Shown here piece by piece: positions 3,274 through 39,518 of a DNA stretch of 44,084 nucleotides. The position numbers and the translations under genes are program-made. The notes below the pieces were generated by a model. That model saw only the letters and a list, made by a program, of their open reading frames with translations, was not told the DNA's origin and ran no database searches. How positions within the stretch are numbered: the stretch's first letter is position 1; each line of letters starts with the position of its first letter. The DNA is from Vicinamibacterales bacterium (GTDB taxonomy: Bacteria; Acidobacteriota; Vicinamibacteria; Vicinamibacterales; UBA2999), in contig JAUXWO010000065.1 of assembly GCA_030680175.1 (NCBI GenBank), positions 1-44,084 on the forward strand, written 5' to 3'.

Positions 3274-4290
3274 TTGCCCGGAACCTCCGCCCAGCTCGAC
3301 GGCGTCCGCACCGCGATCACCACCTGTGAACGGTGTCCCCGCCTCCGTGTCTACTGCGCGCGGATCGCACGCGAGAAGCGCGCCGCCTACCGCGGGGACA
3401 CCTATTGGGGCCGCCCGGTCCCGGGATTCGGCGACCCGCAGGCCCGTGTCCTCATCCTGGGGTTGGCCCCGGCCGCGCACGGCGCCAACCGCACCGGGCG
3501 CGTCTTCACGGGCGATGGCGTGGGCGGGTCGGGGGACTTCCTCATGGCGGCCCTCCACCGCGCGGGCCTTGCCAGCATCCCCACCTCGCAGCGGGCCGAC
3601 GATGGGTTGCGGCTGACGGACGTGTACATCGCGGCCGCCGTGCGGTGCGCGCCGCCGGACAACAAGCCGACGCCCGACGAAGTGACGACGTGCCTCGACC
3701 ACCTCGAGGCGGAGCTCGCGGCGCTGCCACGGCTGCAGATGGTCGTGGCCCTCGGCGGGATCGCATGGAATGCCTGGTTCCAGTTGCTGGCGCGGCGCGG
3801 GATCACGCCGCGGCCGAAGCCCGCCTTCGCGCATGGCGCAGAGTGGCGCTGGAATCCCGCGGATGGCCCGGGCACCGTGAGCACCGTGAGCACCGTGGGC
3901 ACCGCGAGCACCGTGGGCACCGTGGGCACCCCGGGCACCGTGGGCACCCTGGGCACCGTGAGCACCGTGAGCACCCCGGGCACCGTGAGCACCGTGGGCA
4001 CCGTGAGCACCCCGGGCACCGTGAGCACCGTGAGCACCGTGGGCACCGTGGGCACCCCGGGCACCCCGGGCACCGTGAGCACCCCGGGCACCCCGGGCAC
4101 CGTGAGCACCCCGGGCACCGCGGGCACCCTGGGCACCGTGAGCACCCCGGGCACCCTGACTCTGCTAGGCTGCTACCACCCCTCCCGCCAGAACACGAGC
4201 ACGGGACGCGTGACGCCGCCGATGTACGACGCGATCTTCGGTGACCTGCTCTCGGCGGCCATCCCGGCCCCCAGGCGCCGAAGGCGATAG
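3274..4290 (+). CDS. Uracil-DNA glycosylase, family 5 (UdgB-like), with internal repeat insert
   Basis: The product excises uracil and related damaged bases from DNA. Family motifs are in order: CERCPRL near the N-terminus (iron-sulfur cysteines), [42 protein letters not shown] (active-site loop), [14 protein letters not shown], and [16 protein letters not shown] near the C-terminus. No ATG is in frame at the right place. TTG at 3274 is chosen because GAGGTG sits 7 nt upstream (3261-3266) and it gives the short N-terminus expected before the first cysteines (338 aa). Between the HGAEW and LLGCYHPS motifs lies a 96-residue insert made of 32 tripeptides ([18 protein letters not shown]), encoded by the minisatellite at 3871-4158. 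Normal family members have only a short linker there. Confidence 0.9.
3871..4158 (+). repeat. In-frame 9-bp minisatellite, 32 units
   Basis: There are exactly 32 consecutive 9-mers of the form RGCACCNNG (mainly GGCACCGTG, AGCACCGTG, GGCACCCCG and AGCACCCCG; rarer CTG and GCG endings). Variation is limited to base 1 and bases 7-8. Every unit is in register with the glycosylase frame, so copy-number change adds or removes tripeptides without a frameshift. The array stays open in other frames and on the other strand. Confidence 0.97.
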
Positions 4291-4325
4291 GGCGCCGGCC
4301 GCGGCGCCGCGCTGACGCGCGTCAG
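4291..4325. terminator. GC palindromes between convergent UDG and GT2 genes
   Basis: The 31-bp gap between the two stop codons holds a GGCGCC-flanked GC hairpin (4291-4308), followed by a perfect 14-bp palindrome CTGACGCGCGTCAG (4312-4325) that overlaps the GT2 stop codon. There is no T-run. It could serve as a bidirectional stop signal. Confidence 0.35.
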
Positions 4326-16444: not shown

Positions 16445-16611
16445 ATCACGAGATCTGCTGATCTCGTGATCTCGTGATGTGGTGATGGGATGCTCGATGT
16501 CAGGATCTGGTGATCTATCTGGCGATCTGGTGATCTGGTGATCTATCTCGTGATCTGGTGATCTGGTGATCTATCTCGTGATCTGGTGATCTACCTGGTG
16601 ATCTATCTGGC
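16439..16611. repeat. GATC-rich octamer tandem array
   Basis: The whole gap between two convergent genes is made of degenerate ATCTSGTG octamers with occasional 4-nt (ATCT) additions, and holds 15 GATC sites in ~170 bp. The array begins with AGATAGATCAC on the plus strand and ends with the same word read from the minus strand. The TAG stop codons of both flanking genes (16442-16444 plus; 16605-16603 minus) therefore lie in the repeat word. Confidence 0.9.
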
Positions 16612-19828: not shown

Positions 19829-21907
<2,079 letters not shown>

Positions 21908-21908
21908 G

Positions 21909-21992
21909 TTCGCTCTTCGCTCTTCGCGGTTCGCTCTTCGCTCTTCGCGGTTCGCTATTCGCTATTCGCTGTTCGCGGTTCGCTATTCGCTG
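21909..21992. repeat. Heptamer array (TTCGCTN/TTCGCGG, 12 units)
   Basis: Twelve perfectly phased heptamers, all starting TTCGC, begin 2 bp after the radical SAM stop codon. The order is CTC, CTC, CGG repeated twice (last three bases given as T-x pairs: TC, TC, GG, TC, TC, GG), then TA, TA, TG, GG, TA, TG. Confidence 0.95.
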
Positions 21993-22125
21993 TTACGACG
22001 GGGCGGACGTCCACGGGGCGCCGCCCCGTTTGCCCGTCGCGGGAGGCCTTCCCCCGGCGGGCTTTCCCCGGCTGCGGGGTTCGGCTAAGATCGCGGTTCG
22101 TCCCCGGCGTTCCTGCGAGATTCCC

Positions 22126-39400: not shown

Positions 39401-39406
39401 GGCTGG

Positions 39407-39518
39407 TTCTGCATTCTGAGTCGTGCGTTCTGCGTTCTGCGTTGTGAGTTCTGAGTTCTGAGTCGTGACTTCTGAGTGGTGCGTTCTGAGTGGTGCGTTC
39501 TGAGTCGTGAGTCGTGAC
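39407..39518. repeat. Heptamer array (TTCTGAG-type), 16 units
   Basis: Sixteen perfectly phased heptamers of the form TNNTGNV (TTCTGAG six times, TTCTGCG twice, TCGTGAC twice, TGGTGCG twice, and single variants) fill the gap between two minus-strand genes. The following ~30 bp to the thiolase stop contain the same words in the opposite orientation (for example ACTCACA), so the array flips direction near 39518. Confidence 0.96.

Follow-up and report, generated by a model that had tools for sequence, protein, structure and literature searches.

An in-frame tandem array in a bacterial uracil-DNA glycosylase gene as a probable member of a dispersed, genome-specific 9-bp repeat family

The gene for an UdgB-like family-5 uracil-DNA glycosylase (UDG) of a Vicinamibacterales bacterium carries 32 in-frame copies of a 9-bp unit, which very probably belong to a dispersed minisatellite family specific to this genome, the array itself being near-neutral for the enzyme and not a regulatory device. 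Arrays of this unit, RGCACCNNG, are found at dozens of loci of the same genome, on both strands and mostly in intergenic regions, and four of them interrupt genes in frame. The window, by which we mean the whole stretch of DNA analysed (44,084 nucleotides), is contig C38 of a 4.98-Mb draft assembly in 143 contigs (genome G000).

Results

The array occupies positions 3871..4158 of the forward strand. TRF reported a repeat of period 9 at 3870-4155 (31.8 copies, score 334) and a unit scan delimited exactly 32 units at 3871-4158, which, together with a reading frame that stays open throughout, agrees with the original observation of a 32-copy in-frame array. Lag-9 identity is 0.82 in the array, whereas 288-bp stretches taken from the window have a median of 0.33. 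Six unit types, GGCACCGTG (11 units), AGCACCGTG (7), AGCACCCCG (5), GGCACCCCG (4), GGCACCCTG (3) and GGCACCGCG (2), follow one another in irregular order and encode a 96-residue insert of tripeptides, each consisting of Gly or Ser, then Thr, then Val, Pro, Leu or Ala. Matches of this segment to the Collagen (PF01391) and thiocillin-RiPP profiles were rejected as low-complexity matches to the tripeptides. The array length is divisible by three and all 32 units are 9 bp long, so that changes in unit number would not switch the reading frame as in phase variation. No inverted repeat of the kind that forms the palindromic ends of RPE or MITE elements was found around the array in 3700-4300.

The interrupted gene (3274..4290, forward strand) comprises 338 codons plus stop, with an inferred TTG start and GAGGTG about eight bases upstream. 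The part of the Pfam UDG domain that precedes the array (3421..3825; profile positions 1-119 of 141) matches PF03167 with 87.8 bits at a cut-off of 24.3. The closest solved protein is 2d3y of Thermus thermophilus (E 5.1e-55, 190 bits; the next scores 36), which we take to be a family-5 UDG and which also aligns, weakly, with the segment after the array; family-4 models stay far under their cut-offs (50.6 of 250 and 50.1 of 125.3). Judged by sequence, the protein is therefore nearer to family 5 than to family 4, as had been proposed. The array lies between HGA (3832..3840, residues 187-189), the end of the conserved part before a turn, and a conserved segment with the motif HPSRQN (4177..4194, residues 302-307), so that both the predicted location and the preservation of the segment downstream are borne out. 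The GLAPAAHG-N and HPSRQN segments are unchanged in the window protein and invariant in 44 relatives, H187 included, as well as in a 23-row alignment. The same genome contains a second UDG-superfamily gene (G000:C11:82178-82618) with a stronger Pfam score (144.5 bits).

To compare the gene with its relatives, we looked for UDG proteins at 55 relative loci (two sets, of 29 and 26). Two loci (L107, L114) yielded none and two (L127, L128) a partial protein, and the remaining 51 include seven identical pairs, leaving 44 distinct relatives; 18 of the 26 relatives at named loci come from acidobacterial metagenome assemblies, one of them labelled Vicinamibacterales. Relatives without the insert, combined with inactivating changes in the window copy, had been put forward as grounds for abandoning the idea of a functional insert. 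The first half of this holds, as the 9-bp array is absent from all 44 distinct relatives, but the second does not, the window protein showing zero deviations at columns conserved in at least 90% of them.

The AlphaFold2 model, built from 23 sequences (mean pLDDT 70.3, pTM 0.71), is mostly folded except for residues 209-288, whose pLDDT is below 50, and again points to 2d3y as the closest structure (rank 1, E 8.2e-18, TM 0.86 by target length). Strands 189-193 and 295-300 flank the insert, which is placed in a hairpin turn between two strands, a turn whose length varies among the relatives. The insert of about 96 residues is accordingly predicted to be a disordered loop, in line with the flexible loop suggested before. 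A pLDDT below 50 is also seen within the conserved part, at residues 72-76 and 78-83, and the short right flank of the array has a coding score of −0.06, the case for coding there resting on the conserved motif. For these two reasons we regard UDG activity as likely only; the enzyme probably still folds and works with the array in place.

Within the UDG array, the units differ at positions 1, 7 and 8 only, and third codon positions are invariant. The other 51 arrays (954 units) have the same main variable positions, and position 6 varies in 7% of their units. This agreement and the lack of variation at third codon positions argue that the UDG array evolves as DNA; purifying selection on a protein would be expected to leave the opposite pattern. 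The suggestion that the array tunes repair finds no support in these data, since all of its variation is nonsynonymous and is confined to positions at which the other arrays vary as well. The array has a variant mix of its own, 18 of its 32 units having GT at positions 7-8 compared with 62 of 954 elsewhere, which indicates that local expansion acts too.

To trace the family, we searched with a three-unit pattern, GCACCSYGRGCACCSYGRGCACC, using the reversed pattern as control. The pattern has 281 matches in G000 (138 forward, 143 reverse) and the control has none; since units such as CACCTTG are missed, 281 is a lower bound. Among 162 genomes of the order searched, six have a match, namely G000 and five others with 11, 3, 1, 1 and 1. 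The window and 37 stretches around match sites, which hold 246 of the 281 matches, were scanned for arrays of at least six good units, revealing 55 arrays of up to 34 units in 46 clusters. They lie on both strands and are mostly intergenic, only four of the 46 clusters having coding support on both sides. What had been noticed as a feature of one gene is therefore a family that is dispersed in the genome and recurs, in other frames, in three unrelated genes. Canonical G-quadruplex motifs occur in 49 of the 55 arrays; the G-quadruplex was weighed as a cause and set aside, as runs of three G are missing from the 7-bp families of this genome and its relatives (GTTNAGA, AAGGCAN, TTCGCTR).

Several arrays form inverted pairs or adjoin arrays of 7-bp units. 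Close pairs of opposite orientation, which could form long DNA or RNA hairpins, are present at L076, L081, L084, L092, L093, L094 and L095. The arrays at L070:2311-2607 and L099:2205-2420, two different loci, have 99 identical bases in common (70-79 in other pairs), which may reflect copying or else assembly, since L099 ends at a contig end. The window itself contains three further repeats: a 7-bp TTCGCTR array (21907-21994) belonging to a second dispersed family, which matches 142 times in G000 and not at all in 10 other genomes, a 7-bp GTTCTGA-like array (39406-39512) with higher-order periods of 14, 21 and 42 bp, and GATCTGGT-like units (16504-16604) with periods of 8, 20 and 28, similar units being found near arrays elsewhere in the genome.

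Besides the UDG gene, in-frame arrays interrupt a PD40-propeller/amidohydrolase gene (L078:2320-2463), a carbamoyltransferase gene between its N and C domains (L086:7035-7322) and an FtsX/MacB permease gene (L091:11809-11988). All four arrays consist of whole numbers of 9-bp units, and coding scores are positive on both flanks of the latter three. A cluster at L084:3842-3976, which the gene caller placed inside a gene, was not counted because its left flank is non-coding (−0.51). The encoded peptides differ from gene to gene (GT[VP]/ST[VP] in UDG, GTP/GTL in the propeller protein, VPG/VHG in the carbamoyltransferase and GAQ in the permease). A single DNA unit thus yields unrelated tripeptides, depending on the strand and frame in which it is read, which argues that the peptide is not what is kept. 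Orthologues were searched in 59 genomes, and among the rows aligned, namely 27 of FtsX, 29 of the carbamoyltransferase and 18 of the propeller protein (two of these 18 empty, one incomplete), none has an array of comparable length; some of the loops contain other short repeats.

Outside genes, the arrays tend to lie at stop codons. Based on gene calls that are codon-score segments made in this analysis, 22 of 31 stop-facing array ends in G000 are at most 13 bp from a stop codon or overlap it, the placement also reported for dispersed short tandem repeats. At the 26 stop-facing ends within 35 bp, GGTGCCC is on the sense strand in 19 cases and reversed in seven, and the stop codons are TAG (15), TGA (7) and TAA (4). 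Seven of the 26 read TAGGTGC, in which the stop codon and the first unit have one base in common. Arrays starting at the stop codon can be seen at L069, L070, L074, L076, L088, L100, L102 and other loci of G000. In related genomes, 17 of 23 ends in G024, 14 of 27 in G030 and 8 of 11 in G162 lie within 13 bp of a stop (20, 20 and 14 stretches, respectively), and several of the near-array stops in G024 fall inside the array. In G000, 16 of 19 tandem pairs are nearer to the stop side, and 22 of 31 stop ends compared with 4 of 39 start ends lie within 13 bp, a comparison that is biased because start-facing distances were measured from the onset of the coding score and not from start codons. Promoter avoidance could add to this difference, and our argument rests on the stop distances alone. 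As closeness to stop codons is already described, in the text cited, for the heptamers of Xanthomonas and Nostoc (PMC4692102), the arrays belong to a known kind in this respect.

The turn that holds the array in the window is also filled in some relatives. Eight of the 53 UDG turns scanned, a count that includes the window and duplicates, reach a TRF score of at least 30. Three of the seven outside the window are clear arrays, while the other four (one a duplicate) have only 1.9 to 2.7 copies. The clear ones are an 8-bp GCACSCAG array in G024, an 8-bp array with the consensus AGCACCCA at L103 (genome G162) and a 7-bp GTTNAGA array in G033. GCACSCAG has 63 matches in G024, none in eight other genomes of its genus and two in G000; an 8-bp GCACCC pattern has 37 in G162, 128 in G030, four in G025 and none in seven others; and GTTNAGA has 172 in G033, 72 in G117 (= G162; five for the reversed control there) and none in seven others. 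With G000, this makes four of four genomes with a clear array in which the unit of the turn is dispersed in the genome's own DNA. Filling of the loop is not automatic, as the UDG turn of G030 is free of an array even though a family is dispersed in that genome. In accord with the UDG turns, the carbamoyltransferase linkers of G024 and G033 consist of AAGGCAN repeats (in G033 by eye, with no TRF report), a unit with 156 matches in G024, 262 in G033, 148 in G117, 13 in G030, nine in G025, two in G000 and none in four others.

GCACC is on the sense strand of the UDG array alike in G000, G024 and L103. In the UDG tree, the fork that contains the window, together with rows of g2, g10 and others, is unresolved, and the two rows with 8-bp arrays group with a row without one. 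From the sequences, the arrays in the turn could be independent gains or one old array with later turnover of units, both being possible; either would need exchange between loci of one genome. Across the 20 G024 stretches, the array sites common to G000 and G024 are the UDG locus and L098/L146 (68.7% over 345 aa, with arrays upstream of the gene in both), which is suggestive only. Repeats are also present in loops of G001, G030 (FtsX), L171 and L039, the last being the UDG turn of G012, in which a 21-bp repeat of the CGTAGGGCGGGT type is present twice. By codon score alone, candidate in-gene arrays of relatives are L152 in G024, L250, L252 and L261 in G030, and L270, L273, L275, L279 and L281 in G162.

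Discussion

We infer that the arrays spread between loci by copying, through ectopic gene conversion or array transposition, perhaps beginning at a short GCACC/GGTGC seed, and that their length would then change by slippage. The copy in the UDG turn may have survived because the turn tolerates changes in length, the 9-bp unit keeps the frame and, in the frame used here, a stop codon can arise only from a rare unit with NN=TA. Near-neutral arrays would be tolerated in permissive protein loops in this way. A broader reading, which we regard as possible and put forward tentatively, is an active, unit-homogenising process that copies 7-9-bp arrays between loci of these acidobacterial genomes, with unit families of its own in each lineage; its copies would land at stop codons, often as TAG followed immediately by GTGC, and in permissive loops, and the same loop of a repair enzyme would be refilled repeatedly with the family current in the genome.

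Other origins of the insert have to be weighed against a dispersed family. The array might be a contingency locus, its copy number being selected and tuning UDG activity or the mutation rate: tandem arrays easily change length, and this one keeps the frame of a repair gene. We consider this highly improbable given that 9-bp units cannot switch the frame, that the same family recurs in three other unrelated genes and occupies dozens of loci in all, that the variation is DNA-like and that the 44 distinct relatives lack the array. Nor is it at all likely, if by a shade less improbable, that slippage at native codons of the second hairpin strand (GGC ACC CTG in relatives) generated the array on the spot, other loci playing no part. 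The corresponding sequence in G024 and L103 is GCACCCTGGT, and the array of the window has GGCACCCTG at its end, so that a seed was available; yet slippage in place leaves unexplained why one unit recurs at dozens of G000 loci and why each of the turn units in G024, G162 and G033 matches a family that is dispersed in the genome concerned, the one of G033 being dispersed in its own genome and unlike the local sequence.

The gene could also be a decaying pseudogene whose insert marks loss of function, a reading in keeping with the second UDG-superfamily gene at C11:82178-82618 and with the poor modelling of the conserved stretches 72-76 and 78-83. An open frame and the complete agreement with the columns conserved in at least 90% of the 44 relatives make this unlikely. 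Least credible is that the array or its length results from a short-read misjoin at a dispersed repeat. Arrays do break this 143-contig draft, as at 11 other loci one lies within 100 bp of a contig end; however, both halves of the UDG gene flank the array in order and in frame, its six unit types alternate irregularly, and arrays are also seen in this turn in relatives known from other assemblies. The exact length of the UDG array may still be wrong, its copy number resting on this draft.

Understood as a member of a dispersed family, the apparent oddity of one repair gene becomes an example of tandem arrays spreading throughout a genome. If active copying takes place, it would amount to a form of tandem-array transposition, with disordered protein inserts as its product. 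Loops filled by a species' own array offer a natural assay for the process of spread, and they illustrate a route by which non-coding DNA can give rise to disordered protein segments of low complexity. One short unit at dozens of bacterial loci that differs between sister species is a pattern for which the parts of the related literature drawn on here give no explanation. Our literature search found no paper on acidobacterial arrays of such kind.

Short tandem arrays dispersed in bacterial genomes are familiar from the heptamer arrays (STRR) of cyanobacteria, one of which also lies inside a functional gene. The solved family-5 UDG of T. thermophilus (2d3y), closest to the window protein in sequence and fold, has a short hairpin turn without a long insert. 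Dispersed heptamer repeats are described for Xanthomonas (GGGNATC) and Nostoc (GGGGA(C/T)T) (Rehm et al, 2015; PMC4692102) and, in the text cited, resemble the present arrays in being short, genome-wide, mostly intergenic, near or overlapping stop codons and in part arranged as inverted pairs. Compared with that description, the unit here is not a heptamer but has a GCACC core and a length of 9 bp, or 8 bp in relatives, arrays reach up to 34 units and lie in frame in at least four genes, and other families of the same genomes (GTTNAGA, AAGGCAN, TTCGCTR) are free of GGG runs. The TAACTGA direct repeats of Beggiatoaceae likewise form many sets genome-wide, possibly at gene borders, but are of an unrelated unit and, as far as the cited account goes, mostly sit just upstream of start codons, whereas most stop-facing ends here are at the stop codon (PMC4679880). 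Rickettsia palindromic elements (RPE) are also dispersed and inserted in frame in unrelated genes; as characterised in the cited source (PMC10969869), they are about 150 bp long and encode a conserved peptide, in contrast to a direct array with no inverted repeat around it and a different peptide in each gene. Going by these accounts, heptamer arrays that are dispersed (PMC4692102, PMC4679880) are a known kind, as are dispersed repeats inserted in frame (PMC10969869). The 8-9-bp families with a GCACC core look new, and so do the in-frame arrays that a single family has in four genes and a loop that is filled, from genome to genome, with units specific to each.
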